A stretch of DNA of 14,262 nucleotides from Pseudomonadota bacterium (lineage in GTDB: Bacteria > Pseudomonadota > Gammaproteobacteria > Steroidobacterales > Steroidobacteraceae), in NCBI GenBank assembly GCA_003242275.1, contig QGUX01000064.1:1-14262 (forward strand), given 5' to 3'. The translations under genes were made by a program, and so were the position numbers. This document shows, one piece after another, positions 1 through 14,262 of this stretch (its first letter is position 1; every line of letters begins with the position of its first letter). The notes below the pieces were generated by a model. It was not told the origin of the DNA, did not search any database, and saw only the letters and a program-made list of their open reading frames with translations.

Positions 1-690
1 GCCGGTGTTGCCGGTGCGCTCGGGCGTGCGGCCGGTAACGAGGTAGGGCACCATCGCCGAGGCCATGAAGGCCACGGAAGCGTCGAACATGGCCACGTCG
101 ATGTAGTCGCCTTCGCCGGTGCGCTCGCGGCGGAACAGCGCGGCCAGGATGGCGAAGGCCGCGGTCTGTCCCGTGAGCGTGTCGACCACCGGGAAGCCCA
201 CGCGCATCGGCGGCGCGTCGGGGTCGCCGCCCAGGCTCATCATGCCGCTGGTGGCCTGCACGATGTTGTCGATGGCGGGCCAGTTGCGGCGCGGGCCGGC
301 CTGGCCGTAGCCCGACACCGAGCAATAGACCAGCTTCGGGTTCAGCTCCCGCGCCTGGTCGTAGCCCAGTCCCAGCCGCTGCATCACGCCGGGGCGGAAG
401 TTCTCGACCAGCACGTCGCAGCGGGCGATGAGCCGGCGCGCCACCTCCAGGTCGCCGGCATCCTTCAGGTCCAGCACGATCGACTTCTTGCCGGCGTTGA
501 CGGCGATGAATGCCGGCGCCATGCCGTCGTAGCGGCGGTCGGCGCCGTAGTAGCGCATGGCGTCGCCGCGGTCCGGCGATTCCACCTTGATCACTTCCGC
601 GCCGAGCAGGCGCAGCAGGTGGGTGGCATAGGGCCCGGCCATCACATGGCTGAAGTCCGCGACCCGGATCCCTTCAAGGGCTGGTTTCAT
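1..690 (-). CDS. Family III (CaiB/BaiF) CoA-transferase, single domain, C-terminus outside window
   Basis: This is the N-terminal 230 residues of a class III CoA-transferase, a cytoplasmic enzyme that moves CoA between carboxylic acids. The family's N-terminal Rossmann-like pattern is clear: GIRVADFSHVMAGPYAT (7-23), LGAEVIKVESP (29-39), the NAGKKSIVLDLK stretch (65-76), VENFRPG (95-101) and the SGYGQAGP turn (126-133). The catalytic aspartate expected from formyl-CoA transferase (Asp169) corresponds to Asp170 in FPVVDTLTG, so the enzyme looks competent. The family is usually about 390-410 residues, so roughly 40% is cut off at the left edge. The ATG overlaps the TGA of the upstream DctP gene by one base (TGATG) and has an AGGA ribosome-binding site just upstream, which supports this start and translational coupling. 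It is the last gene visible in the operon. The acid it activates is unknown. Confidence 0.93.
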   Translation of the reverse strand, partial: MKPALEGIRVADFSHVMAGPYATHLLRLLGAEVIKVESPDRGDAMRYYGADRRYDGMAPAFIAVNAGKKSIVLDLKDAGDLEVARRLIARCDVLVENFRPGVMQRLGLGYDQARELNPKLVYCSVSGYGQAGPRRNWPAIDNIVQATSGMMSLGGDPDAPPMRVGFPVVDTLTGQTAAFAILAALFRRERTGEGDYIDVAMFDASVAFMASAMVPYLVTGRTPERTGNTG

Positions 691-1733
691 CAAAAATCCT
701 CGCGACAGTTCACTTCGCCGCCGGCGCCGATGCTGGCGCGGGCCACGCGCCAGGAGCGCTCGCCGTCGATGCCGTAGCGCTGCAGCGCGCCGGCGTTGCG
801 GCGCGCTTCCCGCAGGTAGATCTCGTCGAAGCGGCGCTGGTCGTCCTCGCCGATGACGGTGCGGGTCACGCCGTGCTGCTGGGCCAGCTTCCAGCCCTCG
901 TCCAGGGCCTTCATGTTCTCCTCGGCCAGCGCGGCTTCCCACACGGAGACGGATTCGCGCAGCACGGCGCGATGCGCCTCGCTGAGCGAGCGCCAGCGCC
1001 GCCCGCCCATGGCCCGCGCGGGGTAGGCGCCGCGCGGGATGCGCAGGCTGGCATAGTACTTCGCCACCTCGGCCAGGTGCAGTGCCCTGAAGGTGTCCGT
1101 CGGCGCCACCACGCCGTCGATCACGCCCTTGGCCAGCGCGGAGTACACCTCGCCCATGGGCACGTTGATGGGATCGGCGCCCAGCTCGCGCAGCACGGGC
1201 AGCAGTTCGGTCGGGACGCGGATGCGCAGCCCGCGCAGGTCGGAAAGGGCATGGATGGGCTTCTCGCGCGTGATGATGCCCGGCAGGCTGCCGCCCTGCA
1301 CGGCCAGCACTTCCAGGCCCTCCAGCTCGCGCGCGAACTGCGGCTCGTGCGCGGCCAGGCAGCGGTACAGCGCCACCTGCTCGGGTATGCCGCCGATGCC
1401 GGCATAGAAGCCGGACTGGATGCGGATCAGGTGCGCGCCGCCCTTCACGTAGATGGGCGTGATCAGGCCGATGTCCACCACGCCGTGGCGCAGTTCCAGC
1501 ATCGAGTGCTCGGTGGACAGCAGTGCGCCCGACCACACCGGGCGGATGCGCAGCGTGCCGCCGGAGCGCTCTTCCACCCAGGCCATCCAGCGCAGGTCGG
1601 CGCGGCTGAAGGGATGCGCGGGGCTGTACGGCGTGGCGTACACCAGTTCGGTGACGCCCTCGGCCGCGGGCCGGCCGCAGGCGGCGAGGCCCGCGGCCAT
1701 GGCCAGCAGCAGCGGCAGCAGCGCGCGTCTCAC
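690..1733 (-). CDS. TRAP transporter substrate-binding protein, DctP family, predicted lipoprotein
   Basis: This 347-residue extracytoplasmic solute receptor should capture a carboxylate-type solute and deliver it to the DctQM membrane pair. The N-terminus MRRALLPLLLAMAAGLAAC is a lipoprotein signal with lipobox LAAC and acylated Cys19. DctP hallmarks follow: VWSGALLSTEHSMLELRHGVVDIGLI (about 66-91), then DLRGLRIRVP (165-174), whose Arg172 fits the conserved arginine that salt-bridges substrate carboxylates, then GEVYSALAKGVIDGVVAP (194-211). Length is normal for the family. The start is GTG at 1733. It gives a GTGA overlap with the stop of the preceding HGD-D gene, has a GAGGTG ribosome-binding site about 5 bases upstream, and opens directly onto the signal peptide. 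Its frame stays open far upstream, but that is only a shadow of the neighbour. Most Gram-negative DctP proteins are soluble in the periplasm, so a lipid-anchored one is somewhat unusual. The gene is separated from dctQM by three enzyme genes. Confidence 0.93.
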   Translation of the reverse strand: MRRALLPLLLAMAAGLAACGRPAAEGVTELVYATPYSPAHPFSRADLRWMAWVEERSGGTLRIRPVWSGALLSTEHSMLELRHGVVDIGLITPIYVKGGAHLIRIQSGFYAGIGGIPEQVALYRCLAAHEPQFARELEGLEVLAVQGGSLPGIITREKPIHALSDLRGLRIRVPTELLPVLRELGADPINVPMGEVYSALAKGVIDGVVAPTDTFRALHLAEVAKYYASLRIPRGAYPARAMGGRRWRSLSEAHRAVLRESVSVWEAALAEENMKALDEGWKLAQQHGVTRTVIGEDDQRRFDEIYLREARRNAGALQRYGIDGERSWRVARASIGAGGEVNCREDF

Positions 1734-3016
1734 GCACCCACCTCGCGCCGCAGGAACTTCGCCACCTGCGCCACTGCCTCGTCGCGGCTCCAGTTCTTCG
1801 CGTCGACCATGTCCGCATCCAGCATCAGCACCGGCACGCCCGCGGCCTCGAGCGCCGCGCGCGTGAGCAGCGTGCCGGACTGCGACAGGCGGTTGTCGCG
1901 CGGCACCAGCATCACCGCGGCGTCGATGCCGCAGCGGTCGGCCTCGTGCACCATCCATTCGCACATCCACGGCGGCAGGTGCAGCACCTCGTTCATCGAG
2001 CAGATGCGGCTGGCCAGGGCCTCCAGCGGCTGGCCCTTCACGTCGCGGATGTACTGCGCGCCGGCGAAGGGCAGGTACATGGACCAGACGAACACCGCGC
2101 CGAGCTGGTTCTCCAGCGCCTGGTAGAACGAAGTGTCGTGCCACAGCCCGGCGCCGATCCACATCAGCCGCAGCCGCTCGTAGCTGGCCACGCCATGGCC
2201 GGCCTCCACGCGCGCGCGCACCTCGTCGCGGAAGCGCCGCGCATGCGCCACGGCCCAGTCGGTGCCGCGATGCCACTGCGGGATCATGGTGTTGGGCATC
2301 TGGTCGACGATGGACACGGGGCAGGGGCGGGCGCTGCCCACCAGCGCCGCGGCCTCGGCGAGGCAGGTCTCCTGCTCGTTGATCCGCTCCATCAGGTGCG
2401 CGAGGCGCTCCATGCTGAAGCGGCGGCCGGTCTTCTCCTCGAGCACGCCGATCAGCTCCTTCAGCTCGGCGGTCATCAGCGCGATGCGCCCAGCGCCGTA
2501 CACCTCCTCCCAGTGGCTGCGGCCGTGGCGGTACCACTCCGGCAGGCTCCGCTCCCAGGCGGGCGCCTCCATGGGAAAGAAATCGGTGCCCAGCGCCGCC
2601 GCCCACTGCGAGAACACCTGCTGGATGCAGTCGCAGGTCAGCCGCGCCACCAGCAGCGTGGGACGCGGCATGCCGCCCCAGGGCGCGGTGGCGGGATCGT
2701 CGGCCAGCGTGCAGGCCAGCCCCAGCGAGCAGTAGCTGCAGCGGTTCGAGGGAAAGCCCAGCGTGTCGAGTACGTCGAAGTAGCGCCGGCCGAGGCGCTT
2801 GGCCGAGATGTAGGCCGACCACCACTGGTTGGACACCATGGGGATGTCCATGGCGTGGAAGATCTCGTGCGGCGTGTCGGCCTGCGCGATCACGAAGGGC
2901 TCGCCGCGATCCACCACGCGCTCGCGCAGCGTGGCGACGAAGTCCTTCTGGAACCCGGTGGCGGCGGCGGTGCAGGCGAGGTCCTTGCGGGCCGCGCCGG
3001 GGGGGCGGGCAGTCAT
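1730..3016 (-). CDS. 2-hydroxyacyl-CoA dehydratase / benzoyl-CoA reductase-like (HGD-D) subunit with partial Fe-S ligand set
   Basis: This 428-residue protein belongs to the HgdB/HadBC/FldBC/BcrBC family. Those proteins carry [4Fe-4S] clusters and perform radical dehydration of 2-hydroxyacyl-CoA or reduction of aromatic acyl-CoA. Family signs are PHEIFHAMDIPMVSNQWW (49-66), CSYCSLGLAC (93-102), the TCDC segment (127-130) and the C-terminal GVPVLMLDADMVDAKNWSRDE (393-413), which matches the usual 'GIPvL.ldgD..D.rn.s' ending. Known members use three cysteines per cluster. Here Cys93/Cys96 and Cys128 fit the first two. The third should lie after DAAVMLV (365-371), but that stretch reads PRDNRLSQSG with no cysteine. 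Cys339, Cys352 and Cys362 lie nearby and might substitute. The ATG overlaps the upstream stop as ATGA, with AGGAG 8 bases before it. It most likely pairs with the HGD-D homologue at 5148-6188. The reaction is not known. Confidence 0.88.
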   Translation of the reverse strand: MTARPPGAARKDLACTAAATGFQKDFVATLRERVVDRGEPFVIAQADTPHEIFHAMDIPMVSNQWWSAYISAKRLGRRYFDVLDTLGFPSNRCSYCSLGLACTLADDPATAPWGGMPRPTLLVARLTCDCIQQVFSQWAAALGTDFFPMEAPAWERSLPEWYRHGRSHWEEVYGAGRIALMTAELKELIGVLEEKTGRRFSMERLAHLMERINEQETCLAEAAALVGSARPCPVSIVDQMPNTMIPQWHRGTDWAVAHARRFRDEVRARVEAGHGVASYERLRLMWIGAGLWHDTSFYQALENQLGAVFVWSMYLPFAGAQYIRDVKGQPLEALASRICSMNEVLHLPPWMCEWMVHEADRCGIDAAVMLVPRDNRLSQSGTLLTRAALEAAGVPVLMLDADMVDAKNWSRDEAVAQVAKFLRREVGA

Positions 3017-5151
3017 TTCAGCGCTCCTGCCGCGACCAGGGCGGCATAACGTTCCTCGTCCAGGCCGGCAATGGACAATGCCACCTCGCGGCCGTGTTCG
3101 CCGAGCTTCGGTGCGCGATAGGGCTCGCCGGCGTCGAGCGACAGCGAGACCGGCGTGCGCATGTGGCCGAAGGGTCCCAGGTACGGGTGCGGCAGTTCCA
3201 CCAGCGCGCCGCGCGCCTGCAGGACGGGATCGGCCATCATGTCCTCGATGTCCTGCACCACGCCGGCGGCGATGCCCTCGGCCTGCAGCCGCTCCACCAG
3301 TTCGATGTCCTGCTGGCCGCTCGTCCACTCGTGCAGGGGTTTTCCGCCCGAAAGCTGCGCCAGGCGTCCGGCCTGCGCTGCATCCTGCAGCGTGATCGCC
3401 ACCCAGCGGTCCTCGCCGCGCGCCGGATACACGTCCTGGTGGTACACGCCGGGATCGGCATTGCCGGCGCGGCGCAGCGGCGTGCCGCGCTGCGCGGCCA
3501 GCAGCGCCTCGTGCATCTGCTGCACGCAGATCTCGTACATCGAGGCGTCGATGTGGCAGCCGGCGCCGCCCTGGCGGCGGTGCGCCAGCGCGGCGATGAG
3601 GCAGGCGGCCATCACGTAGGGCACGATCACGTCGCCATAGGGCACCGCGCCGGGCACCACCGGGTCACGGTCCGGCCAGCCGGTCAGCCAGGTGCGGCCG
3701 GACAGCGCGCCGCCGGTGCCATCGACACCCCATTCCTGCGCCAGCGGCCCGGTCTGGCCGTAGACGCTGCCCGAGGCCATCACGATGCCGGGATTGCGCG
3801 CTGACAGCGCCGCATAGCCCAGCCCCAGCTTGTCCATGGTGCCGGGGGAGAAGTTCTCGACCACGGCATCGGCCCAGTCCACCAGCGGTTCGATCAGCGC
3901 GCGCGAGGCCGGGTTCTTCAGGTCCATGGCCACGCTGCGCTTGGAGGTGTTCAGGTGCGCGAACCAGGGCTTGTCGTCGGGATTGTCGGCGCGCGAGACG
4001 CTCACCTGCACGTCCAGGCGCGACAGGCAGGGGCGCGTGCTGCTCTCGATCTTCACCACGTCGGCGCCGAGGTCGCCGAGGATCTTGGTGGTGATCGAGC
4101 CCACCAGCGCCCAGGAGAAATCGAGGATGCGCAATCCGGCCAGCGGGCCGGGGCGCGTGCCGCGCTCGCGCGGCCGCCAGGCCGGCACGTCCGCCGGTCC
4201 CGCCGTGATGCGCGCGAAACGCCCCGGCACGCGCAGGCCGTCCTGCTCGATCCAGAAGCCCCGCGCCTCGAGGTGCTGCGAGGCCAGCACCGATTCGGGC
4301 GACTCCACCACGCAGGCGTTGATGCCACGCCGCCGTCCCTCGGTGCGGATCTGCTCGCAGGTGCGCGTGCGGAAGAAGGCATCGATGGCCGATTCCCATT
4401 GCGCGCGCGTGGCCGGGTCCAGCGTGGAGCGGTTGTAGCGCAGCCAGTCCACGCCGCGCAGCGGGTTGGCGACGCCGCACTCGTCCATCCAGTCCGACAG
4501 CGCCTGGTTGGCCGGTGCGCCGAAGCGCCCGGTCATCAGGCTGTGGAAGCACCAGCCGTCGGCCAGCTTCCAGATGCAGCGCACCGTGGCGCGGCCATAG
4601 TTGAGCGCGCCGCCCACGCGGTGCAGCTTGCGGCGGTCGAACTGCCACACCAGCACGCCATTGACGTTGCGGCTGAAGGCCACCTCCTGCACGGACACGT
4701 CCACGTGCTGGCCGAGGCCATGCTCCAGCCGCGCGTAGTGCGCAGCCATCGCCCCGGCGGCGGCCACCATCTCGGCGTGGAAGGTGCAGGCATCCAGCGC
4801 TTCCTTCACCGGCGGGCGGTCGGGCTCGCCGGTCAGGCGCAGCGTGCCGCCCATGGCCGAGGCCACCAGCTCGCCGCCGCGCCAGTGCGCACGCGGCGTG
4901 CCGCTGCCGAAGGGCGTCACCGATACGTGCACCAGCGCGGGATTCCACTGCTCAAGCAGCTCGCGGGTGAGGCCCTGCGCGGCCAGGCGCTCCAGGCCCT
5001 GGTCCTCGACCAGGAAATCCGCGGTGCGGACCAGCCCGCCCTGCGCATCGCCGTGCACGATGTCGGCGCCGAGGCTGGCCAGCAGGCGGCACAGCGGCCG
5101 CCGGTGCATGTCGCCGAGCGCCAGCACGCTCGTCCCGGAAAGCGGCTTCAT
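3013..5151 (-). CDS. Tandem (double-domain) family III CoA-transferase; N-terminal copy lacks the catalytic Asp
   Basis: This 712-residue protein is two CaiB/BaiF domains in series, about 1-330 and 336-712. The second copy is canonical: LAGLRILDFSWALVGS (337-352), LGADVVKIES (361-370), the NTSKRSVAMDLKN stretch (401-413), VENFSPGTMDKLGLGY (431-446), YGQTGPL (464-470), and catalytic-type Asp507 in VPYGDVIVPYV. The first copy matches in GLGQHVDVSVQE (145-156) and the flanking helices. It is degenerate before residue 90, and where Asp is expected (28 residues before the D of HVDVS) it has Thr123. The pattern suggests one catalytic and one structural or substrate-gripping half. The ATG overlaps the previous stop as ATGA and has GGGAG upstream. 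Flanked on both sides by HGD-D genes, it probably makes the CoA thioester they act on. Classical family III enzymes are interlocked dimers of one-domain chains, so the fusion may be a built-in heterodimer. Confidence 0.93.
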   Translation of the reverse strand: MKPLSGTSVLALGDMHRRPLCRLLASLGADIVHGDAQGGLVRTADFLVEDQGLERLAAQGLTRELLEQWNPALVHVSVTPFGSGTPRAHWRGGELVASAMGGTLRLTGEPDRPPVKEALDACTFHAEMVAAAGAMAAHYARLEHGLGQHVDVSVQEVAFSRNVNGVLVWQFDRRKLHRVGGALNYGRATVRCIWKLADGWCFHSLMTGRFGAPANQALSDWMDECGVANPLRGVDWLRYNRSTLDPATRAQWESAIDAFFRTRTCEQIRTEGRRRGINACVVESPESVLASQHLEARGFWIEQDGLRVPGRFARITAGPADVPAWRPRERGTRPGPLAGLRILDFSWALVGSITTKILGDLGADVVKIESSTRPCLSRLDVQVSVSRADNPDDKPWFAHLNTSKRSVAMDLKNPASRALIEPLVDWADAVVENFSPGTMDKLGLGYAALSARNPGIVMASGSVYGQTGPLAQEWGVDGTGGALSGRTWLTGWPDRDPVVPGAVPYGDVIVPYVMAACLIAALAHRRQGGAGCHIDASMYEICVQQMHEALLAAQRGTPLRRAGNADPGVYHQDVYPARGEDRWVAITLQDAAQAGRLAQLSGGKPLHEWTSGQQDIELVERLQAEGIAAGVVQDIEDMMADPVLQARGALVELPHPYLGPFGHMRTPVSLSLDAGEPYRAPKLGEHGREVALSIAGLDEERYAALVAAGALK

Positions 5152-6188
5152 GGCAGCTTCTCCCTGCAGAAGCGCGTGATGGCCTCGAGCGCGCCGTCGT
5201 CCGCCGCCCAGCGGCGGTCGGCGAGCAGCAGCAGCGGCACGCCGGCCTCGCGCAGCGCCCGCACCTGCGCGGGCACCTGCCAGGCCAGCGCCTCGTCCTC
5301 GCGGGTCATCCACAGGATCACGCCCTGCGCGCCGCTGTCGCGCACGCGCGCGAGCAGCTGCACGGCGCGGTCGACGAAGACGCGCTGGCCCGCACCATGG
5401 CGCTGCAGGTGACGCGCGATGCGCAGCGACGGTGGTTCGGCAGACTCGCCCAACGGCGGGCCGAGGCGCAGAGGGCCGCCCGCATGCAGCTCGTCCACGA
5501 TGCAGGCGCCGCCGGCCTCGGCGGCGCGATGCAGGCGATCATCCGGCGGCATGCTGCCGGCGAGCAGCACGCGGCGGCCGGTGTCGTCCATCGGCAATGC
5601 GACCTCGTCGATCCACTGCGTGGCATCGCTCCACAGCGCGGCGCGGTACATGTGCTCGTACAGCGGGCCGTGGCTGCGCCGCCGGGAATTCATCGCCGCC
5701 AGCGTCAGGCGCAGGCAGTCGGCGCGCGCGATGGCCGACGGCCATGCCGCGGGGTCGATGCCCAGCCGCTTCGCCAGTTCCTCGATGGCCGCGGCCGTGT
5801 GCGCGAGGCTGGTGTCGCGCGGGATCAGCGCCAGGTCGAGCAGGTGCGTGCCAGGCCCGCGCAGCAGCCCGCGCGCCTGCAGCTCGCGCACGTAGTAGCA
5901 CAGCCGCTGCGCGGCATCGTCGGCGCGCGAGAACACCACGTCGGCGATGCCGTCGAAGTCGCCGGCGAACCATTGCTCGAGGATGGAACGCGCCCAGCCG
6001 GGAAAGCTGGACTCCAGCCAGCGGTCGGCCGCGGGGGTCGGAACATCCGCATACCAGGGAAGATGTCCGAACGGCCGACCGCTGGCCAGAAGCAGTTCGG
6101 GCGGAATGTCCGCGCCGACGAAGCCCACCCCGTCCCGGCGCAGGGAATCCAGGGGCGAGGCCAGCAGGGTTTCAAACGGTTGGCTCAT
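5148..6188 (-). CDS. Divergent 2-hydroxyacyl-CoA dehydratase-like (HGD-D) subunit lacking cluster cysteines
   Basis: This 346-residue protein is a remote member of the HGD-D family. The evidence is GADIPPELLLASGRPFGHLPW (25-45), the central RVLLAGSMPPDDRLHRAAEAGG stretch (206-227) followed by CIVDEL (229-234), and the C-terminal QGVILWMTREDEALAWQVPAQ region (288-308) followed by AGVPLLLL (315-322). These follow the family's order and spacing. The cluster-ligand positions appear empty. The 'CD' of the second ligand site reads A-D in FSRADDAAQ (86-94), the first site reads FPGWARS (62-68), and the third has acidic residues (REDEAL). Its four cysteines (97, 158, 229, 341) sit elsewhere. It may be a non-redox partner of the 428-residue HGD-D protein. 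The ATG follows the dctM stop by 7 bases with a weak GGATGAG site, and an upstream in-frame extension belongs to dctM. Confidence is good for the family and low for any activity. Confidence 0.8.
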   Translation of the reverse strand: MSQPFETLLASPLDSLRRDGVGFVGADIPPELLLASGRPFGHLPWYADVPTPAADRWLESSFPGWARSILEQWFAGDFDGIADVVFSRADDAAQRLCYYVRELQARGLLRGPGTHLLDLALIPRDTSLAHTAAAIEELAKRLGIDPAAWPSAIARADCLRLTLAAMNSRRRSHGPLYEHMYRAALWSDATQWIDEVALPMDDTGRRVLLAGSMPPDDRLHRAAEAGGACIVDELHAGGPLRLGPPLGESAEPPSLRIARHLQRHGAGQRVFVDRAVQLLARVRDSGAQGVILWMTREDEALAWQVPAQVRALREAGVPLLLLADRRWAADDGALEAITRFCREKLP

Positions 6189-6195
6189 GGGTGAC

Positions 6196-7500
6196 TCATC
6201 CGGAAAGCAGTTGCGGCAGGCCCAGCGCCAGCACGGGGAAGACGACCAGCAGCGCCAGGTGCACCAGGTCGGCCGCGAGGAAGGGAAGTACGCCCTTGAA
6301 CACGCGCGCAAGCGGCACGTCCGGCGCCACGCCGCGGATCACGTACAGGTTCATGCCGATGGGCGGGTGCACGAAGCCGATCTCCATCGCGCGCACCAGG
6401 AAGATGCCGAACCAGATCGGCGAGAGCCCCATGCCCTGCACCAGTGGCAGCAGGATGGGCGTGGTCAGCAGCATCAGCGCCAGGCCGTCGAGCACCGAGC
6501 CGACCAGCAGCAGGAACAGCGCCACCAGCAGCATGGTGGCCACGGGACCCAGGCCCAGCCCCTCGATGCCGGCGCCGATGACGTCGGTGAAGCCGGTGAC
6601 GCCGATGAAGGTGGAGAAGATCAGCGCGCCGATGACCACCAGGTAGATCAGGCCGCTGGTCTTCAGCGTGTCCTCCAGCGCGCGCCGCAACGAGGCCCAG
6701 GTGAGCTGTCCGCGCCAGAAGCAGATCAGCAGCGCGCCGGCGGCGCCCACCGCGGCCGCCTCGGGGGGCGTGACCCATCCCAGCGCGATGCCGCCGATCA
6801 CGGCCAGCACCAGGATGCCGATGTCGAGCATGCGCCTGAGCGCCGCGCGCCGTTCCGCCCAGCTCGCGCGTGGCAGCGACGGCGCGATGTCCGGCCGCCA
6901 GCGCACCAGCAGCGCGATCACCAGGAAGTAGCTCAGCATCTGCGTGACGCCCGGCACGATGGCGGCGGTGAACAGCGTGCCGATGGACTGCTCGGCGATG
7001 ATGCCGAACACGATCAGCGCGCCCGAAGGCGGGATCATCTGGCCCAGCGTGCCGCCGGCGGCCACCGAGCCGGTGGCCAGCGCGTCCGAGTAGCCGCGGC
7101 TGCGCATCTCGGGCAGCGCCACCAGGCCGATGGTGGCGGTGGTGGCGAGGCTGGAGCCGTTGATGGCGCCGAAGCCCGCGCAGCCGGCCACCGAGGCCAC
7201 CGCCAGGCCGCCGCGGCGATGGCCGAACATGCGCGCGGCCACGTCGAAGAAGTCGCGGCTGGCATTGGCCGCGAAGCACAGGTGCGCCATCAGCATGAAC
7301 AGCGGCAGCGTGCCGAGCTCGTAGCGCGTGACGGTCTCGAAGAACAGCACCGCGGACTTCACCAGCATGGGTTCGAGGCCCAGCGTGAACGCCAGGCCCG
7401 CCATGCCCACCAGTCCGAGTGCGACGCCGATGGGCATGCCCATCACCAGCAGCAGCAGCAGCGCGCACACGCCGATCAGTCCCGGCGCCAGCCCGGTCAT
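6196..7500 (-). CDS. TRAP transporter large permease, DctM family
   Basis: This 434-residue integral inner-membrane protein is the ion-driven transport subunit of a TRAP system. It is hydrophobic throughout, in line with the family's dozen or so membrane segments. It carries DctM signatures: FGAINGSSLATTATIG (about 128-143), GGTLGQMIPPSGALIVFG (about 167-184) followed by the SIGTLFTAAIVPG loop, and FVHPPIGMNLYVIRGVAP near the C-terminus. Length is typical. The ATG overlaps the dctQ stop as ATGA, with GGGAGA a few bases upstream. dctQ and dctM are adjacent, as in most TRAP operons, while the binding-protein gene is displaced to 690-1733. The TRAP family suggests uptake of a carboxylate or sulfonate driven by a sodium or proton gradient, but the substrate is not predictable from the permease. 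Confidence 0.95.
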   Translation of the reverse strand: MTGLAPGLIGVCALLLLLVMGMPIGVALGLVGMAGLAFTLGLEPMLVKSAVLFFETVTRYELGTLPLFMLMAHLCFAANASRDFFDVAARMFGHRRGGLAVASVAGCAGFGAINGSSLATTATIGLVALPEMRSRGYSDALATGSVAAGGTLGQMIPPSGALIVFGIIAEQSIGTLFTAAIVPGVTQMLSYFLVIALLVRWRPDIAPSLPRASWAERRAALRRMLDIGILVLAVIGGIALGWVTPPEAAAVGAAGALLICFWRGQLTWASLRRALEDTLKTSGLIYLVVIGALIFSTFIGVTGFTDVIGAGIEGLGLGPVATMLLVALFLLLVGSVLDGLALMLLTTPILLPLVQGMGLSPIWFGIFLVRAMEIGFVHPPIGMNLYVIRGVAPDVPLARVFKGVLPFLAADLVHLALLVVFPVLALGLPQLLSG

Positions 7501-7958
7501 CGCGTCTCTCCCGGGCGAAGGAGGCCACGCAGCGCCAGCAGCAGCAGCCAGGCCGTGGTCAGCACCGCGGCGATGCGCAGCGGACGGTAGGGCAGGTGCC
7601 AGATCTCGCTCTCCTCCTGCGCGCCCCACAGGTCGGCGGCGATCCACAGGCTCCCGGCCAGCAGGGCGAGGTACACCAGCGCCGAGGCCACGGCATTGAC
7701 GAACTGCATCACCCTGCGCGTGCCGCCGGTGGCGCGGTCGAGCAGCAGGTGCACGCGGGCATGCGCGGCGGCGCGCGTGGCCACCACCAGGCTGCCGCAG
7801 GCGGCGAACAGCACCGCGGCCTGCACCAGCTCGATGGAGCCCGGCAGCGGGAAGCGGACCTGCCTGCCGAACATGGCGAGGGTGTCCACCACCATGGCCA
7901 GCAGCAGCGCGCCGCCGGCGACCCACACGAGCAGGTCCCTTGCACCAGGACGCTTCAT
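7497..7958 (-). CDS. TRAP transporter small permease, DctQ family
   Basis: This 153-residue protein has four hydrophobic segments (about 8-30, 40-62, 85-107 and 127-147), the layout of the small DctQ subunit that joins DctM in TRAP transporters. The loop after segment 2 carries HARVHLLLDR, resembling the family's 'H..vd.l...l' motif. The chosen ATG overlaps the upstream CapA-like stop as ATGA. There is no clear ribosome-binding site (upstream reads TGTGGTTGTGCGC), so it is probably translated by coupling. Alternative upstream starts in this frame lie inside the CapA-like gene and would put a soluble arginine-rich tail on a membrane protein. DctQ sequences vary greatly, so the call leans on topology plus adjacency to dctM. 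Confidence 0.88.
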   Translation of the reverse strand: MKRPGARDLLVWVAGGALLLAMVVDTLAMFGRQVRFPLPGSIELVQAAVLFAACGSLVVATRAAAHARVHLLLDRATGGTRRVMQFVNAVASALVYLALLAGSLWIAADLWGAQEESEIWHLPYRPLRIAAVLTTAWLLLLALRGLLRPGETR

Positions 7959-9097
7959 GCGCACAACCACAGTTGCGGCGAGACGCGTTGCCACTGCAGC
8001 GCCGGCAGGCCGGCATCGCGGCCGATGCGCCCGAGGTAACGGATGACGGCCTCGGCGCGTTCGTCCTCCACGCACACGGGCCGGCCCGGCGGTTCCACGT
8101 ACACGGGAACCACGCCGGCCTCGAGCCGGCCGTCCGCATGCCATCGCACCACGCCCAGCGCCGCATGGACCGCCTCGGGATGGAAGGGCGCCAGCGTGTA
8201 GCGCGGATCGGGCTCGAAGCCGAACAGCTCGCGCCGGCGGCGCGCCCATTCCGCGCGCGCCGGGTGGGACTGGTCCATGGACAGCGCGGCGGTCACCACG
8301 CAGCCATTGCCCAGCCCGTGGAAGACCGGATGCCCGCCGGGCAGCGAGATGCCGCGCAGGATGTGCGCGTGGTGGCAGACCACCACGTCCGCGCCGGCCT
8401 CGAGCGCGGCCCGGGCCAGTTCGCGCTCATAGGGCTCGATGCGCGCCGGCGTGTGCACCACGCCCTGGTGCAGCGAGACCACCACCAGGCCGGCCACCGG
8501 CCTTGCCGCGGCGATGTCGCGCGCCAGCCATTCGCGCGCGGCCGGATCCATGGCGGTGATGGGCGACCTCGGCGTCACCGGGCTGCCGTCGGCGGTGCGC
8601 ACGGGCAGGTAGTTGCAGCCAGCGCGGTTCTCTCCGGCCCAGGCCGCCTCCGGGCCGACGCAGTTGTAGCTGAGCAGGGCAATGTTCCGGCCTTCGTGTT
8701 CCAGCCAGCCGGGGCGGCGCGCGATGGCGAGGTCGGCGCCCGCGCCGGCGTGCGCGATGCCCAGCCGGTCCAGCCGCGCGATGGTGTCGGCAATGCCCTC
8801 CGGGCCGCAGTCGGCGATGTGGTTGCCGGCCAGCGTCAGCGCGTGCACGCCGGCGCGCGCCAGCGCATCCAGGTGTTCCGGGTCCGCCCCCGGCGCCGGC
8901 ACGTCGCCGGCCAGCTCCTGTCCGCGGCGGGTGTGCGGCACTTCCAGGTGGCCGATCACCAGGTCGGCCTCGCGCAGGGCGGGGGCAATGCCCGACAGCC
9001 AGTGATCCGGCTCCGGCACGTCGAGCACGATGTCGCCGGTGAACAGCAGCGTCAGCGCGCGCGGAGATTGCTTCGTGTCGGCTGGATGCTTGATCAT
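7955..9097 (-). CDS. CapA-like (PGA_cap) metallophosphatase-fold protein, first gene of the operon
   Basis: This 380-residue protein has the CapA / poly-gamma-glutamate synthesis fold related to calcineurin-like phosphoesterases. Its motifs come in the right order: TLLFTGDIVLD (16-26), HLEVPHT, TLAGNHIADCG (the GNH motif), the VVVSLHQGVVHTPARIE stretch, and ADVVVCHHAHILRGISLPGG followed by PVFHGLGN. The Asp and His residues are those expected for metal binding. There is no signal peptide or membrane anchor ahead of the domain, unlike capsule-type CapA, so the product should be cytoplasmic, and no capsule genes are nearby. Leading a TRAP/CoA-transferase operon, it more likely acts on a small metabolite (perhaps a phosphoester or amide) than on capsule; this is inference. 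The ATG at 9097 is the only methionine near the domain start, and its ribosome-binding site (TGGTGAA) is weak. Confidence 0.88.
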   Translation of the reverse strand: MIKHPADTKQSPRALTLLFTGDIVLDVPEPDHWLSGIAPALREADLVIGHLEVPHTRRGQELAGDVPAPGADPEHLDALARAGVHALTLAGNHIADCGPEGIADTIARLDRLGIAHAGAGADLAIARRPGWLEHEGRNIALLSYNCVGPEAAWAGENRAGCNYLPVRTADGSPVTPRSPITAMDPAAREWLARDIAAARPVAGLVVVSLHQGVVHTPARIEPYERELARAALEAGADVVVCHHAHILRGISLPGGHPVFHGLGNGCVVTAALSMDQSHPARAEWARRRRELFGFEPDPRYTLAPFHPEAVHAALGVVRWHADGRLEAGVVPVYVEPPGRPVCVEDERAEAVIRYLGRIGRDAGLPALQWQRVSPQLWLCA

Positions 9098-9105
9098 TTC
9101 ACCAA
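9090..9105. promoter_or_regulatory. Imperfect dyad between the divergent CapA-like and GntR starts, possible operator
   Basis: The 16 bases from 9090 read TTG-N-T-N-A-NN-T-N-A-N-CAA, in which 10 of 16 positions obey two-fold symmetry, including the outer TTG/CAA. TGATCA (9091-9096) and ACCA-A-TGGT (9101-9109) are smaller palindromes in the same place. The site covers both start-codon regions. A GntR dimer could bind here and control both directions. I found no convincing -35/-10 pair for either gene. The symmetry is modest, so this is tentative. Confidence 0.35.
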
Positions 9106-9830
9106 TGGTCCAGCGGATTGCAACCAGGCCTGCGCGCCGTGCGCGCAACGTCAAGCCGGCTTCGCGTGCGGGCGATGCCGGCGCGGCGTTGCGTTCGCCG
9201 GCCGACGTGGCGGCATGGCTGCGCGAGCGCATCCGCCTCGGCCGCTTCGTGCCCGGCCAGCGCCTGGTCGAGGCCGACCTGGTCGAGGCCACCGGCGCGA
9301 GCCGCAGCAAGGTGCGCGAGGCATTGCGGCGCCTGGAGGCCGAGGGGCTGGTCTCCATCGAGGAATTCCGCGGTGCCTCGGTCAAGCGCCTGGGGCCGGA
9401 TGAAGTGCGGCAGATCTACCGCGCGCGCATGGCGCTGGAAGGGCTGGCCGCGGCCGAATGCGCGCTGCGCGCCGACGACGCGCTGCGCGCGCGCCTGCGC
9501 GAGACCCAGGCGAAGCTCGACGAGGTCGAGAAGGCCGGCGACCACGACCGCTTCGCGCAGCTCAACGGCGCCTGGCACCGCATGATCATCGAGGGCTCGG
9601 GCAATCCCTACATCGCCCAGTTCCTCACGCACCTGACGGTGCCCATCTACCGGCTGCTGTTCTCGACCTTCTACTCCACCCAGCGGCTGGCCGAGGCCAA
9701 TGCCGACCACCGCCTGATCACCGCCGCCATCGTGGAGGGACGGGCCGCCGATGCCGAGCAGGCCATGCGCACCCACATCAGCAACGGCCTTGCCGCGCTG
9801 CTGGAGCTCGATACACAACTGCAGGCCTGA
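9105..9830 (+). CDS. GntR-family transcriptional regulator, FCD (FadR) subgroup
   Basis: This 241-residue DNA-binding regulator has a winged helix at about 31-97: SPADVAAWLRERIRLGRF, then PGQRLVEADLVEATGASRSK with VREALRRLEAEGLVSIE. An FCD ligand-binding helical domain follows at about 98-238. FCD metal-site residues are visible: N154 where Asp is usual, H158 (AWHRMI), H202 (ADHRLI) and H224 (RTHIS). This fits a sensor of organic acids, the usual FCD ligands. The start at 9105 leaves a basic, disordered 30-residue leader; a later TTG at 9189 is possible, and an upstream ATG at 9030 would overlap the divergent gene. It faces away from the eight-gene operon, with 7 bases between the start codons, so self-regulation and control of that operon are likely. 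It ends convergent with the TonB receptor gene, 35 bases apart. Confidence 0.94.
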   Translation: MVQRIATRPARRARNVKPASRAGDAGAALRSPADVAAWLRERIRLGRFVPGQRLVEADLVEATGASRSKVREALRRLEAEGLVSIEEFRGASVKRLGPDEVRQIYRARMALEGLAAAECALRADDALRARLRETQAKLDEVEKAGDHDRFAQLNGAWHRMIIEGSGNPYIAQFLTHLTVPIYRLLFSTFYSTQRLAEANADHRLITAAIVEGRAADAEQAMRTHISNGLAALLELDTQLQA

Positions 9831-9836
9831 AGGGAC

Positions 9837-9859
9837 ATCGGCGCCATCGCGGCGGTGAT
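9837..9859. terminator. Weak hairpin in the convergent gap, possible terminator
   Basis: The 35-base gap between the convergent GntR and TonB-receptor stops contains ATCGGCGCC, a 5-base loop and GGCGGTGAT, which can pair over 7 of 9 positions. There is no run of T on either side, so an intrinsic terminator is only a weak possibility. Confidence 0.2.
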
Positions 9860-9865
9860 CCGGTT

Positions 9866-12523
9866 CTACCATTTCTTTCGCAGGGTCAGGGCGAAGAGCC
9901 GCCCGATGGGATTGGTGACGGTCGCATCGTAGCCGCCGCTGCCATTGGCGGACGGCGCGACATTGACATAGGGCGGATCCTCGTCGAAGGCATTGCGTAC
10001 CTCGAGTCCCACCTCGAGGTCCCGCAGCGCCGGTCCCTGGCTGAACGACCCGAGGTCGACCCCGAACGCGAGGTCCACCGGCGTGTACGGGCCGACGCCT
10101 TCGGCGGGCGTGACCGAATTGTTCCTGTAGCCGTGCACGCGCGTGATGGTAGCCTGCGCGGACCACGGTCCGCTGCTCCAGGCCGCGCCGCCGCGCAGCT
10201 TCAGCTTCAGCGGATTGAAGATGGTGTTGAGGCGGTCGACCATGGGTGCCGCCGGCGTGATCGCCACTTCATAGGTGGTGAGCCACGTGCCGTTGAGCGT
10301 GAAGGTCCAGCGCCCGGCGCTTGCGGTCTGCAGGGCGTAAGCCGCGGTGAAGTCGAAGCCCCTCATGTCCGAAACGCCCAGGTTCTGGTTGCGGCCGTCG
10401 ACGAACAGCGTGACGTTCGCCGCCGAACCGCCGGGCAGCACACCGACCACCCCGATGCCCTGGTCGATCGCCGCCTGCACGGCGGCGGCGGCCTCGGCAC
10501 CGCGCAGGATGATGTCCGTGCCCTCGAAGTCCGCCTCGTTCGCCAGCAGGTTGAGGTTCGACAGGTAGGCCTCGACCTGGTTCTTGTAGTGGACGTCGAA
10601 GTACGTGGCGCCCAGGCGCAGGTTGTTGCCCACGTCCCAGTCGAAGCCCACCGACCACGTGGTGGCCTCCTCGGGACCCAGGTCGCGGTTCTCGCCCGAC
10701 AGCGCCACACCCTGGATGGGCGCGCCGCCGGCCGGGTTCTGGTAGTTCTGCACGTACAGGTTGTTGCTGTTGCCGTAGATCTGCGAGATCAGCGGCGCGC
10801 GGAAGGAGGTGCCGTAGCTGCCGCGCACCGCGAGGTTGGCCACGGGACGCCAGGTGACGCCGAACTTGGAGTTGGTGGTGTCGCCCACGTCGCTGTAGTC
10901 GTCGTAGCGGATGGCGGCGTTGACGGTCAGCCGCTCGGCGCCGGGACGGGCGTTGCCGGGGCCGAACAGCGGGATCTGCAGCTCGGCATAGGCCGAGTCC
11001 ACGGTACGGCCGAAGTGGCGCCATGCCATGGCGGTGGTCGGGGCGCCGCGCGCGGAGCCCAGGTCCACGCCGATGTCCTGCCGCTCGTAGCCGGTGGCCA
11101 GGCCCAGGTTGCCGCCCGGCAGGCGCGCCAGCGTGCCGTTGAAGCGCAGCTCGTAGCCCTTGAAGTCGCTCTTCGTGGGCGCGAGGAAGATCTGGTTGGC
11201 GAGGGTCTCGAGCACGGCGCTGGAGGTGCGGTGCAGGCCGTAGGGATCGAAGGCCGTGGCCGGGTCGGAGCTGGCCAGCGCGGCGTTCAGGGCGCCGCTG
11301 TTCAGGCCGTACCACTGCTCGGAATTGTCCGAAGTCTTGCCGTAGCCGAACACCGCCTCGGCCTGCCAGTCGCCGCCCAGCTCCACCTGCACCGACGGGG
11401 TGACCTGCCAGTTGCGCGCGAAGCCCTCCGAGTCGTTGCGCGGCAGCTCGCCGGCGAAGCTGTAGTCGATGAAGTACGAGGTGCCCTCGAAGCCCTCGGG
11501 CCGCACGAACCAGGCATTGGTTTCCGGCACCGACAGGCGCGCGTTCGACCAGGGGAAGGCGCGCTTGAAGCGGCGGCGGCTGTAGAAGCCGTCGGCCAGC
11601 AGCCGGACCCGCGGCGAGATCTCGTAAGTGAAGGTGGAGGCGACGGAGTCGTAGGTCTGTTCCGGGAACAGATCCTGGCCGATGAGCTCGTCACAGCGAT
11701 TGGCCGTGCCGGGGGACAGGCTGGCCACGTTCTCCGTGGTGAGCCCACCTGCCGGGATGGCGTAGGTGGTCGAGTCGATCACCAGCGTGCCGGGGGAGCA
11801 GCGCGTGGTGCGGTAGTCGCGCCCGCCGCGCGCGGTCTGGTCGGCGCGGAAGAAGTCGCGGTCGTCACCTGAAAGGTTGTCGCGAAACACGTGCTCGTAG
11901 GCGAGCATGAACTGGCCACGCTCGAACACCGTGCCCCACGCGGCGCCCACCACGTATTCGCCGAAGTCGTCGGCGACGCCGCCGCGCGCGAAGGCTTCCG
12001 CGCCGTCGAGGCTGCGCCGCGGGATCAGGTTCACCACGCCGGCGATGGCATCCGAGCCGTAGATCGCGGAGGAGCCGTCGGCCACCACCTCGACGCGCTC
12101 CACGCCCAGCGTGGGCAGGATCGAGGGGTCGGTGCTGCGCGAGTTGTTGGTCACGCGGTGGCCGTCGACGATGATCAGCGTGGCATACGGGCCGATGCCG
12201 CGCAGGTTGACCGTGTTGCCATAGACGATGTTGCCGCTGCCGCCGGATTGCGCGCGCGAGTTCTCGCTCACGCCCAGGTCGAAGTTCTGCGGCAGTTCCT
12301 TCAGCATGCGGTCGAGGCTCACCTGGCCGGCGGTCTCGATCTCCTCGCGGCCCAGCGAGGTGACGGTGGCACCGACCACCTCGGCGCCGCGCACGCGGCT
12401 GCCGGTGACCACGACCTCTTCCAGTTCCGCGTCCGGCGCCGCCGCCGCGAACAGCGGCGATGCCCCGGCGATGCAGGCAGCGCCCAGGACCAGGCGGCGA
12501 ACGGTGAGCGACACTTCATCCAT
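9866..12523 (-). CDS. TonB-dependent outer-membrane receptor
   Basis: This 885-residue outer-membrane gate should take up a substrate using TonB-transmitted energy. A signal peptide occupies about 1-29 (hydrophobic LVLGAACIAGASPLFA). A TonB box (ELEEVVVTG, 33-41) follows, then the plug with TVNLRGIGPYATLIIVDGHR and VERVEVVADGSSAIYGSDAIAGVVNLI-type motifs (about 125-185), then a 22-strand-type barrel with FRAPLISQIYG and NLRLGATYFDVHYKNQVE late in the chain. It ends in LRKKW, an aromatic C-terminus as needed for barrel assembly, after an NAFDEDPPYVN motif seen in many receptors of this type. The ATG has GGAGGG 5 bases upstream. The first residues (MDEVSL) are acidic for a signal peptide, and a GTG three codons later would give a more typical one. 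Substrate is unknown. A strong palindromic operator precedes it. Confidence 0.96.
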   Translation of the reverse strand: MDEVSLTVRRLVLGAACIAGASPLFAAAAPDAELEEVVVTGSRVRGAEVVGATVTSLGREEIETAGQVSLDRMLKELPQNFDLGVSENSRAQSGGSGNIVYGNTVNLRGIGPYATLIIVDGHRVTNNSRSTDPSILPTLGVERVEVVADGSSAIYGSDAIAGVVNLIPRRSLDGAEAFARGGVADDFGEYVVGAAWGTVFERGQFMLAYEHVFRDNLSGDDRDFFRADQTARGGRDYRTTRCSPGTLVIDSTTYAIPAGGLTTENVASLSPGTANRCDELIGQDLFPEQTYDSVASTFTYEISPRVRLLADGFYSRRRFKRAFPWSNARLSVPETNAWFVRPEGFEGTSYFIDYSFAGELPRNDSEGFARNWQVTPSVQVELGGDWQAEAVFGYGKTSDNSEQWYGLNSGALNAALASSDPATAFDPYGLHRTSSAVLETLANQIFLAPTKSDFKGYELRFNGTLARLPGGNLGLATGYERQDIGVDLGSARGAPTTAMAWRHFGRTVDSAYAELQIPLFGPGNARPGAERLTVNAAIRYDDYSDVGDTTNSKFGVTWRPVANLAVRGSYGTSFRAPLISQIYGNSNNLYVQNYQNPAGGAPIQGVALSGENRDLGPEEATTWSVGFDWDVGNNLRLGATYFDVHYKNQVEAYLSNLNLLANEADFEGTDIILRGAEAAAAVQAAIDQGIGVVGVLPGGSAANVTLFVDGRNQNLGVSDMRGFDFTAAYALQTASAGRWTFTLNGTWLTTYEVAITPAAPMVDRLNTIFNPLKLKLRGGAAWSSGPWSAQATITRVHGYRNNSVTPAEGVGPYTPVDLAFGVDLGSFSQGPALRDLEVGLEVRNAFDEDPPYVNVAPSANGSGGYDATVTNPIGRLFALTLRKKW

Positions 12524-12528
12524 GATGA

Positions 12529-12534: not shown

Positions 12535-12568
12535 GTGTGGGCGGGTGTGGAGGCCGTCCCGCCCTGTG

Positions 12569-12618: not shown

Positions 12619-12624
12619 GTGCCG

Positions 12625-14262
12625 TTACGGCGCCTCGGGCGGACGCAGCGGCAGGTCGATCCAGGAAGCGTTGCGGCCGGAGGCCACGCGGATGCGCGGC
12701 GGGGGCTCCTTGCGAAGTTCGGCGAGATTGCGCTGGCGCGGGTCGGCGCCGGTCACCACCACCCGCAGCCGCGAGCCGGCGGAGATGACGCGCGCCACCG
12801 GCGTGAGCGCGAATTCCAGGTCCACCTCGCGCCCCGGCGACAGCGGGACATGGTCGGCGGACAGGCCGGTGATCCACGGCAGGCCCAGCGTGTCGTAGGG
12901 CGCCTTGCCGGTCCTGCGGTAGGCGGCGGCGAGGCGGCCGAAGGCCAGCACGTCCGCGCTGCCATCCGGCGAAACCTGCTCCAGGTAGGCGAACAGCAGC
13001 GGCTCGGGATCATTCGACGCCACGCGCAGCCGCATCACCGGGAAACCCACCAGTTCCCGGGGCCCATCCAGCGCCGCGCTGGTGAAGCTCAGCCCGCGCC
13101 CGTGCTGGGACCCGACCCAGAAGGCGAAGGCCTCGGCCGGGCCGAGGTCGTAGTCCACCGTGAACTCGCCCGAACCGCGCCTGGGCGCCTTCGGCTGCAG
13201 CAGGCCCTCCGCGCCGGATGCGGCGAGGTACCAGCGCTGGCGCGGCGCATCCACGCCCGGCCAGCGGTCGGCCTCGCGCCAGTTGCGGCCGGCGGGCGCT
13301 TCCTCCAGCCACCACTTCACCCGCGCGGAAGCCGGTGCGGGAATGTCGCGCAGGTGCTGGTCGAAGTGGCGCTGCACCTCGCCGGCGAAGTCGAAGTCCG
13401 GTGGCACCGCGCAATGCGAGCCGGGACCGATCAGCAACCGCCCGCCGAGGTTCTCCGCGGCGAGGATCATCTGCCCGGTGGGCTCGTCGCGCAGGTTGCT
13501 CCAGAAGTAGGTGGCGATGCCGGAGCCGCGCAGCGTGTCGAGATAGGTGTAAGGGCCGACCTCCTCCCAGAAGCGGTTGCCGGTCAGCGGCGAGACACTG
13601 TCGCGGAAGGGCATGCCGTACCACAGCGGCGCCATCGGCGTGTTGTCCGCATGCTGCGCCACCGCCGCGCGCAGCAGCTCGCCGCGCCAGTCCTCGTCCA
13701 CCGGCACGCTGGCGAGGTCGTCGCTCAGTGGCTCGTCGGGGCGCGTGTTGAACTGCGCCGTGATGCCGCCGTTGCGCACGAAGGCGAACTTGTCGAGGTC
13801 CGATGCGCCGGTGAAGATGGCCCGCAGTGCCGGCGGCGCGGTCGACGCCACGTGCACCGTGGTGCCCCCCACGTAGGAGCAGCCGTACATGCCCACGCGG
13901 CCATTGGACCAGGGCTGCGCGGCCAGCCACTGGACGAGGTCGTGGCCGTCCATGGCTTCGGTGCGGTCCTGGAAGCCGCGCCGCGCCCCGAAGGAAGCGC
14001 CCTTGCCGCGGATGTCGGCCACCGCCAGCACGTAGCCGGCCGCCAGCAGGCGCTGGGCGATCTCGCGCGGGAAGGACTCCAGCTCACGCACCCGGCCGTC
14101 GGCGTCGCGGAAGCGGGCGCGATAGGGCGTGAACGCGAACACCGTGGGCAGTCGGCCCGGCAGCAGCGCGCCGTCGCGGGCCGGACGGTAGACGTGCATC
14201 GCCAGGCGCGTGCCGTCGCGCACCGGCACGTACAGCGACTCGCGCCGCGGGCCCTGCGGCGG
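12625..14262 (-). CDS. CocE/NonD-type alpha/beta hydrolase (X-Pro dipeptidyl-peptidase S15 family), N-terminus outside window
   Basis: About 545 residues are visible and the frame is still open at the right edge. Residue numbers here count from the in-frame GTG at 14229, which lies just inside the usual CocE opening (SLYVPVRDGTRLAMHVYRPA) and is therefore not taken as the start. The family hydrolyses esters or amides such as cocaine, cephalosporin esters and X-Pro peptides. Visible motifs are VADIRGKGAS (70-79), the nucleophile elbow GCSYVGG with Ser118, and GPGSHC with His272 as the likely catalytic histidine. A C-terminal jelly-roll domain (about 315-534) starts at WYLAASGAEG. The catalytic Asp, usually in a GWxD motif, is not obvious: the segment reads IATYFWSNLRDEP, with Asp248 three residues after the expected place. 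Missing residues probably include a signal peptide. It lies upstream of the TonB receptor gene on the same strand, suggesting linked processing and uptake of one compound. Confidence 0.92.
   Translation of the reverse strand, partial: PPQGPRRESLYVPVRDGTRLAMHVYRPARDGALLPGRLPTVFAFTPYRARFRDADGRVRELESFPREIAQRLLAAGYVLAVADIRGKGASFGARRGFQDRTEAMDGHDLVQWLAAQPWSNGRVGMYGCSYVGGTTVHVASTAPPALRAIFTGASDLDKFAFVRNGGITAQFNTRPDEPLSDDLASVPVDEDWRGELLRAAVAQHADNTPMAPLWYGMPFRDSVSPLTGNRFWEEVGPYTYLDTLRGSGIATYFWSNLRDEPTGQMILAAENLGGRLLIGPGSHCAVPPDFDFAGEVQRHFDQHLRDIPAPASARVKWWLEEAPAGRNWREADRWPGVDAPRQRWYLAASGAEGLLQPKAPRRGSGEFTVDYDLGPAEAFAFWVGSQHGRGLSFTSAALDGPRELVGFPVMRLRVASNDPEPLLFAYLEQVSPDGSADVLAFGRLAAAYRRTGKAPYDTLGLPWITGLSADHVPLSPGREVDLEFALTPVARVISAGSRLRVVVTGADPRQRNLAELRKEPPPRIRVASGRNASWIDLPLRPPEAP

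Follow-up and report, generated by a model that had tools for sequence, protein, structure and literature searches.

The question raised by the locus described here is what two proteins resembling oxygen-sensitive enzymes contribute to an operon whose main host genera are aerobes. The locus lies in a window of 14,262 nucleotides, which is the whole stretch of DNA analyzed in this study (contig QGUX01000064.1 of GenBank assembly GCA_003242275.1, positions 1 to 14,262 of the forward strand), from a gammaproteobacterium of the Steroidobacteraceae. Its eight minus-strand genes encode, in this order, a CapA-like protein, the TRAP permeases DctQ and DctM, HGD1, the CoA-transferase CoAT1, HGD2, the TRAP solute-binding protein DctP and the CoA-transferase CoAT2. 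The central proteins, HGD1 and HGD2, resemble oxygen-sensitive enzymes of the HGD-D kind without some of their functional parts, and the pair therefore probably does something not yet described.

HGD1 and HGD2 form an alpha/beta heterodimer of the HGD-D fold, as in the benzoyl-CoA reductase/2-hydroxyacyl-CoA dehydratase (BCR/HAD) radical enzyme family; HGD2 has the HadB/BzdO fold, and HGD1 matched the profiles of HadC (5e-13) and BzdN (2e-8). For the class I benzoyl-CoA reductase BzdNO, the accessible text of PMC11971306 describes ATP-dependent electron activation, the ligands Cys95, Cys128 and Cys380 of the catalytic [4Fe-4S] cluster in BzdO, Glu65 and His131 near the water ligand of this cluster, and Tyr97 and Tyr298 hydrogen-bonded to the thioester oxygen. 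In a comparison with BzdNO and MbdON (8S02, 9G87), most of the HGD2 sequence could be aligned with MbdO and parts of it with BzdO, and its residues C93, C128, N375, Y95 and Y314 fell on BzdO Cys95, Cys128, Cys380, Tyr97 and Tyr298, respectively. Both thioester tyrosines are thus retained, whereas the third cluster ligand is replaced by Asn, no His is found at positions 129-135 of the window protein, and the Glu of the "PE" position in MbdO and HadB, taken as BzdO Glu65, aligns with Q64.

These changes are general in the relatives of HGD2. Among 72 aligned HGD2 rows (the window and 71 loci; L069 was dropped as shorter than 80% of the length), Cys at positions 93, 96, 102 and 128, Tyr at 95 and 314 and Gln at 64 were found in every row, and position 375 was Asn in 66, Ser in 5, a gap in 1 and Cys in none. 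A protein search with HGD2 gave at least 2,350 relatives among 7,998 scored candidates, of which the best 120 were 74-91% identical to the window protein; all of these 120 window-type proteins had the same four Cys residues and Gln at 64, with Asn (105), Ser (14) or Thr (1) at 375. By comparison, four canonical alpha controls (L083 and L089, which have annotated activase neighbours, together with L088 and L090) all carried Cys at the three ligand positions and Glu at position 64. HGD1 had no invariant Cys across 66 rows, and the two columns that were Cys in all six controls contained no Cys in 14 HGD1 rows; a Cys at HGD1 position 101 was at least 90% conserved in 27 rows, yet the window has Arg there. 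The loss goes further in a sister clade (the L082 type, represented by a Rhizobium sp. SSA_523 protein 43.5% identical to the window HGD2), in which none of the best 120 relatives had Cys at 93, 128 or 375. In all 240 proteins of both clades, the residues K73, Y79, Y95, W248, R250, G251, W254, W292, Y298, W311, M313, Y314, R337 and W354 were invariant. HGD1-HGD2 was accordingly placed in the HGD-D fold superfamily and not among the 2-hydroxyacyl-CoA dehydratases or benzoyl-CoA reductases, because defining features of these enzymes that were checked here are missing.

The change of the usual catalytic groups next to retained thioester tyrosines could also be explained if HGD1-HGD2 were no independent enzyme and served as a CoA-thioester-binding partner or carrier for the CoA-transferases. 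L065 has a reduced set, only HGD1, HGD2 and CoAT2 beside a GntR gene, which would agree with such a role, but the same genome (G319) has a fuller copy, L005; reading L065 as a minimal pathway was weakened for the same reason. We consider a carrier role unlikely, since K73, Y79, W248, R250, W254, W311 and M313 are among the residues invariant in 240 of 240 proteins and are mostly different in the canonical controls, which suggests a selected active site and not a scaffold. L085, L087 and L100 encode HGD1 and HGD2 as a single fused frame (774, 780 and 788 aa, respectively), and these fusions support a working heterodimer.

To our knowledge, the HGD-D enzymes known so far all depend on an activase. 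No activase was found by Pfam and NCBIfam among the genes of the window, which ends within CoAT2. The activase model TIGR00241, with its cut-off applied, was searched in 71 carriers, i.e. genomes with a window-type HGD2, the window's own genome and that of L013 standing outside this set; 4 of the 71 exceeded the cut-off (0/25, 4/42 and 0/4 by batch) and 67 did not, in genomes of uncertain completeness. The batch of 42 came from 48 targets, the other six being three plasmid records and three distant relatives, and in the latter TIGR00241 found no match; neither did it in G319 (searched again), G366 (the genome of L099) or G526. As controls, the plasmid record W03, which holds a canonical pair with activases, was detected by TIGR00241, and HGD-D proteins were detected in 25/25 of the first genomes. 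The broad model PF01869 matched in 9 of these 25 genomes and exceeded its cut-off in 5, leaving 20 without a match above the cut-off; these matches are read as related kinases because TIGR00241 found no activase in those genomes. The preliminary description had assumed that the HGD-D proteins act as members of an established family, and this assumption was not supported, given the missing activase in 67 of 71 carriers and the loss of the third HGD2 Cys and of the aligned HGD1 cluster Cys.

The gene set therefore differs from HadBC (3O3M) and from FldABC-type clusters in the absence of an activase from the window and from most carriers, in the lost Cys residues of both subunits, and in the presence of TonB, TRAP and CapA genes in or beside the operon. 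With regard to BzdNO, the replacement of Cys380 by N375, the missing His and the exchange of Glu for Gln are accompanied by the absence of a BzdPQ-type activase from most carriers. The Azoarcus KH32C plasmid cluster (L089) combines an HGD-D pair and a family III (CaiB) CoA-transferase in one cluster, as is the case here, but it has an activase and the canonical Cys 93, 128 and 375 in the alpha subunit, and no CapA or TRAP gene occurs in the stretch shown. A further canonical HGD-D pair, on a Rhizobium leguminosarum plasmid (L083:11890-17318), lies with genes for an ABC binding protein and two activases, after which come genes for a rhodanese and a sulfate permease. Rhizobium is usually held to be aerobic. 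In the part of the open-access (PMC) literature that was accessible, no description of this gene set was found, and the accessible text of PMC7142613, which reviews sphingomonad TonB receptors, contained nothing on it; to this extent the earlier statement that no named pathway has this set of genes agrees with the literature.

When an alignment of 28 HGD2 sequences was used to scan genomes, one for each species, 72 loci were obtained in Novosphingobium, Sphingobium, relatives of Erythrobacter, Asticcacaulis, Steroidobacter, gammaproteobacterial metagenome-assembled genomes (MAGs) and a few others. Locus layouts were judged from tblastn matches, and the count was limited to the 51 loci in which at least 6.6 kb preceded, and at least 4.2 kb followed, the point where the HGD2 match starts (21 were excluded). 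All eight genes occurred in the window's order on one strand in 42/51 loci, so the arrangement is more than chance; the carriers of this order are largely Sphingomonadales, Steroidobacter and gammaproteobacterial MAGs. Individually, HGD1 was in place in 51, DctM and DctP in 50 each, DctQ in 49, CoAT1 and CoAT2 in 48 each and CapA in 45 of the 51 loci. Furthermore, a homologue of the TonB receptor was present anywhere in the examined stretch in 46 loci, of the S15 hydrolase in 44 and of GntR in 26 (tblastn, E 1e-5 or better, paralogues included). The search for these families in the same order in other genomes had been put forward earlier as a check, and the operon has come through it as a conserved set.

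The gene set is an accessory unit. In an even sample of 296 genomes from the order of G005, a close HGD2 (66-69% identity) was found in 10, a distant one (37-43%) in 3 and weak matches only (20-25%) in 13; moreover, HGD2 at 68-69% was present on 6 of the 11 plasmid records with a match, four from Novosphingobium and two from Croceicoccus. This patchy spread and the plasmid copies suggest horizontal transfer of the gene set. In two genomes the HGD1-HGD2 pair is present twice in different settings (L005 and L065 in G319; L033 and L041 in G735). One metagenome-assembled record titled Klebsiella pneumoniae (L024) has the operon beside a TonB receptor and a GntR gene, and its title is probably misassigned.

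The remaining members of the operon suggest how the pair may be supplied with its substrate. The catalytic Asp of formyl-CoA transferase is Asp169. CoAT2 (3e-60 to YfdE) and the C-terminal half of CoAT1 align with the family III enzymes formyl-CoA transferase, YfdE and benzylsuccinate CoA-transferase, from which CoAT1 differs in being a tandem of 712 aa. The catalytic Asp of this family has a candidate in each unit, namely CoAT2 D170 (70/70 rows) and CoAT1 D507 in the C-half (65/65 rows), both aligned with an Asp of 10uh, and CoAT1 D120 in the N-half (62/65 rows), which was picked by eye from the motif. The two CoA-transferases named in the preliminary description are thus both present as genes, but CoAT1 is double-domain and the number of CoA-transferase units is three. 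The TRAP transporter is complete, with DctP, DctQ and DctM all matched in Pfam and DctP separated from DctQM by three genes. TRAP uptake combined with CoA activation, as proposed earlier, is supported. In several Novosphingobium-type loci, a secreted protein resembling alpha/beta-hydrolases, with a weak likeness to PET-type ester hydrolases, sits between DctP and CoAT2 (e.g. L004:12315-13214).

Taken together, we propose, with a probability of roughly 0.45, that this is an aerobic operon for an ester-derived acid, which would be taken up, activated with CoA and then subjected to a non-radical, activase-free acyl-CoA step, presumably in the catabolic direction. The TonB receptor would take the ester-bound acid across the outer membrane, and the CocE/S15 hydrolase could free the acid from its ester. 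A hydrophobic N-terminus was found in 17 of 25 S15 frames of at least 560 aa by a crude hydropathy count; since the start codons of these frames are unsure, hydrolysis in the periplasm is put forward provisionally. The freed acid, presumably an organic acid, would be imported by the TRAP system and would receive CoA from CoAT2 and CoAT1. The HGD1-HGD2 heterodimer may then act on the CoA thioester without ATP or activase, and the residues lost and the residues kept point to a non-radical step, most likely an elimination or isomerisation through an enolate held by the two tyrosines, with no ketyl radical. CapA, a putative metal acid/base enzyme, may prepare or epimerise the acid or an intermediate in most carriers, while some would do without it, and GntR would control the operon.

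Clues to the acid come from neighbouring genes and are slender and mixed. In the divergent locus L099, a module of TonB, S15, CoA-transferase, HGD1, HGD2 and CapA genes is followed by genes for MarR, a VanA-type oxygenase, MFS, a second MarR-like protein (recognized by eye), aldehyde dehydrogenase, ECH and an AMP-binding enzyme, which we take to be the gene complement typical of ferulate and vanillate degradation. In L081 a tannase/feruloyl esterase gene adjoins a CapA paralogue. Genes for an RPE65-type oxygenase and PaaX are found in L086, and L082 has two MmgE/PrpD genes and an HpcH aldolase gene; L072 and L081 have one MmgE/PrpD gene each. Most of these clues would agree with an acid released from an ester of plant or algal origin, although the Pfam tally of the flanks (113 of 211 flank proteins, picked manually so that close copies were avoided) is too mixed for the substrate to be named from it.

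A C4-C6 di- or tricarboxylate of the citramalate, aconitate or itaconate type, with HGD1-HGD2 acting on its CoA ester as a hydro-lyase or isomerase, would account for the MmgE/PrpD and HpcH genes, all of which stand near divergent or paralogous modules. TRAP carriers often transport carboxylates, and the best model scores of CoAT1 and CoAT2 were those of formyl-CoA/oxalate, glutarate and mesaconate CoA-transferases, all below cut-off, which CoAT2, cut by the window end, could hardly reach. These scores were far below the cut-offs and the MmgE/PrpD and HpcH neighbours are absent from the window, so that this substrate class seems about as improbable as the carrier role discussed above.

Several observations weigh against the proposed activase-free operon for ester-derived acids. 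Four carriers do possess activases, all four being MAGs; in three of them the activases adjoin HGD-D genes resembling the canonical controls, and the fourth was judged from one contig. In the MAG of L027 (G331; L101 is contig 101), the HGD-D/activase cluster lies on a contig of 106,689 bases, the same size as that of the operon, and G334 gave a partial TIGR00241 match below cut-off. The HGD2 of L099 (L099:8774-10024 in G366), which is 54% identical to the window protein, has C93, C96, C128 and the canonical third Cys, and a cluster may thus remain relevant to some members of the family; an early reading of the whole family as devoid of cluster ligands was dropped for this reason. The four invariant Cys of the window-type HGD2 may likewise bind a cluster or another metal site. 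With respect to the substrate, the aromatic-ester signal in the flanks is loose (tannase in 2, VanA_C in 2 and FAD_binding_3 in 4 of the 113 flank proteins). Finally, the operon carriers G319 (L005, L065), G328 (L024) and G330 (L026) had no CapA match.

Some of these observations would be expected if HGD1-HGD2 were a normal BCR/HAD radical enzyme whose activating ATPase is borrowed or has escaped recognition. The pair shares the fold and the type of heterodimer with this family, the window type has four invariant Cys and L099 the three canonical ones, and over-cut-off matches to PF01869 in 5 of 25 genomes and to TIGR00241 in 4 of 71 carriers offer possible activators. This explanation is even less likely than the two already considered, given the 67 of 71 carriers and the 20 of 25 genomes in which the respective model found nothing over its cut-off, the loss of the third Cys, the exchange of Glu for Gln in 120/120 proteins, the HGD1 subunit without aligned cluster Cys, and the sister clade, none of whose best 120 members has any of the three Cys.

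The activase-free reading leads to a broader proposal, which is put forward tentatively and with less confidence than the operon function itself. HGD1-HGD2 may represent a new class of enzyme, namely an acyl-CoA lyase or isomerase that tolerates oxygen, needs no activase and has the fold of the most oxygen-sensitive radical dehydratases. In its lineage the activase would have been lost first (L099), the Cys set would then have been altered (window type), and all three ligand Cys would have been lost last (L082 type and the fused forms), with the thioester tyrosines kept throughout. The loss of Cys ligands across the family looks gradual, and the L099 HGD2, with three canonical Cys in a genome in which TIGR00241 found no activase, is a possible intermediate. 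Such an enzyme would open a new aerobic route for acids released from plant or algal esters, with an epimerisation or acid/base step of the CapA type in most carriers. If this is true, the labels "benzoyl-CoA reductase subunit B" and "2-hydroxyacyl-CoA dehydratase", which many HGD2 relatives bear and which suggest an anaerobic metabolism of aromatics or amino acids, do not apply to a large aerobic family that is common in public genomes and metagenomes, as the number of scored matches indicates. The family would then be a test case for the reuse of a radical enzyme fold without its usual cluster, and the groups can be distinguished by a simple rule based on the activase and the three Cys positions. 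The operon is compact and is found in culturable strains, such as Novosphingobium subterraneum DSM 12447 and Croceibacterium mercuriale, which makes its substrate and reaction directly accessible.

The CapA-like protein had been singled out earlier as the possible source of a new step. Its nearest solved relative by sequence and fold is MslH (8GQ9; Foldseek E 5e-28, model pLDDT 91.5), a metal-dependent alpha-carbon epimerase of lasso peptides according to the accessible text of PMC10406935. Six of the eight metal and dyad residues of MslH described there (Glu44, Asn87, His88, Asp91, His259 and His295) are identical in CapA (E52, N92, H93, D96, H210 and H245), and Asp11 falls outside the alignment, with D22 as its likely counterpart; in contrast, the metal ligand His261 corresponds to G212, and CapA lies far below the cut-off of the MslH model (91 of 700 bits). 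Some of the matched residues are general to calcineurin-like enzymes, and epimerisation by CapA is therefore a guess. CapA is a usual member of the operon, being in place in most of the counted loci and standing near HGD2 in the divergent L099 (48%, directly after HGD2) and L085 (60%, 2.4 kb after HGD2); it is also dispensable, as the three carrier genomes without a match indicate. In L006 and L071 it is out of place but found elsewhere, and in G220 and G526, whose HGD pairs are distant, no CapA match was obtained. Second CapA copies with 34-36% identity occur in L011, L016, L020, L030, L037, L048 and L072. In Novosphingobium sp. ES2-1 (L081:26749-34461), the operon is adjoined by a second CapA (36%), a membrane protein without a Pfam match, a TonB receptor, the tannase/feruloyl esterase and MmgE/PrpD.

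In FldA-FldBC, a CoA-transferase and an HGD-D pair work together, and the removal of an alpha-hydroxyl group is the step that needs the radical mechanism and an activase. An analogous scheme, in which an aryl-lactate from a rosmarinate-type hydroxycinnamate ester is activated, HGD1-HGD2 dehydrates aryllactyl-CoA to cinnamoyl-CoA like FldABC and CapA sets the stereoisomer, is very doubtful and the least probable of the alternatives, for although the CoA-transferase and HGD-D pair, the ferulate-type genes beside the L099 module, the tannase/feruloyl esterase beside the L081 CapA paralogue and the relation of CapA to an alpha-carbon epimerase would suit it, the required activase is absent from most carriers, the complete ferulate-type set occurs in one locus only, some carriers have no CapA match, and "rosmarinic acid" was not found with Novosphingobium among the open-access matches listed.

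The layout of the window is summarized in the table below. The recomputed bounds of the eight minus-strand genes, which extend from 9097 down to 1 with five neighbouring pairs overlapping by 4 bases, one pair overlapping by 1 base and one pair separated by 7 bases, confirmed the arrangement given in the preliminary description, Pfam confirmed every family named in it, and the layout supports its view that the genes are expressed as one transcription unit. Moreover, the high-GC codon position tracks the predicted frames of the operon genes along the window. Beyond 9097 the neighbourhood continues to a divergent GntR/FCD regulator, a TonB receptor and a CocE/S15 hydrolase, which had been left out.

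Table. Genes predicted in the 14,262-nucleotide window and their family assignments.
Feature	Position	Strand	Length	Family match	Remark
CapA-like (PGA_cap, calcineurin-like metalloenzyme)	7955..9097	-	380 aa	Pfam PF09587 2e-50	
TRAP small permease DctQ	7497..7958	-		Pfam PF04290 9.5e-12	4-base overlap with CapA
TRAP large permease DctM	6196..7500	-		Pfam PF06808 7e-93; TIGR00786 above cut-off	4-base overlap with DctQ
HGD1, beta-type HGD-D homologue	5148..6188	-	346 aa	Pfam PF06050 1.7e-10 (weak)	7-base gap to DctM
CoAT1, tandem family III CoA-transferase	3013..5151	-	712 aa	Pfam PF02515 1.5e-115, two stretches	4-base overlap
HGD2, alpha-type HGD-D homologue	1730..3016	-	428 aa	Pfam HGD-D 2e-49	altered Cys set; 4-base overlap
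TRAP solute-binding DctP	690..1733	-		Pfam PF03480 3.6e-29; NF037995 above cut-off	GTG start; 4-base overlap
CoAT2, family III CoA-transferase	1..690	-		Pfam PF02515 6.7e-90	cut by window end; 1-base overlap
GntR/FCD regulator	9105-9830	+		Pfam GntR 3e-15, FCD 3e-28	divergent; start codon uncertain
TonB-dependent receptor	9866..12523	-		Pfam Plug and barrel	
CocE/NonD (S15) hydrolase	14229..12625	-		Pfam PF02129 2e-37; TIGR00976 above cut-off	5' end open beyond window

The interval between CapA and GntR was scanned for promoters and terminators without a match, and Rfam gave none either. The assumed starts of these two genes are separated by 7 bases (9098-9104), and one start has therefore probably been annotated too early; any promoter between them must fall within one annotated start. 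A protein of about 530 aa with CxxCH motifs is encoded near the operon in 17 of the 72 loci (e.g. L004:15032-16618). It had no match in Pfam or NCBIfam and weak PDB matches to di-haem cytochromes, which gave no support to the idea of a rubber oxygenase of the RoxA kind. The gene for this haem-motif protein sometimes adjoins that of an OmpA-like secreted protein.

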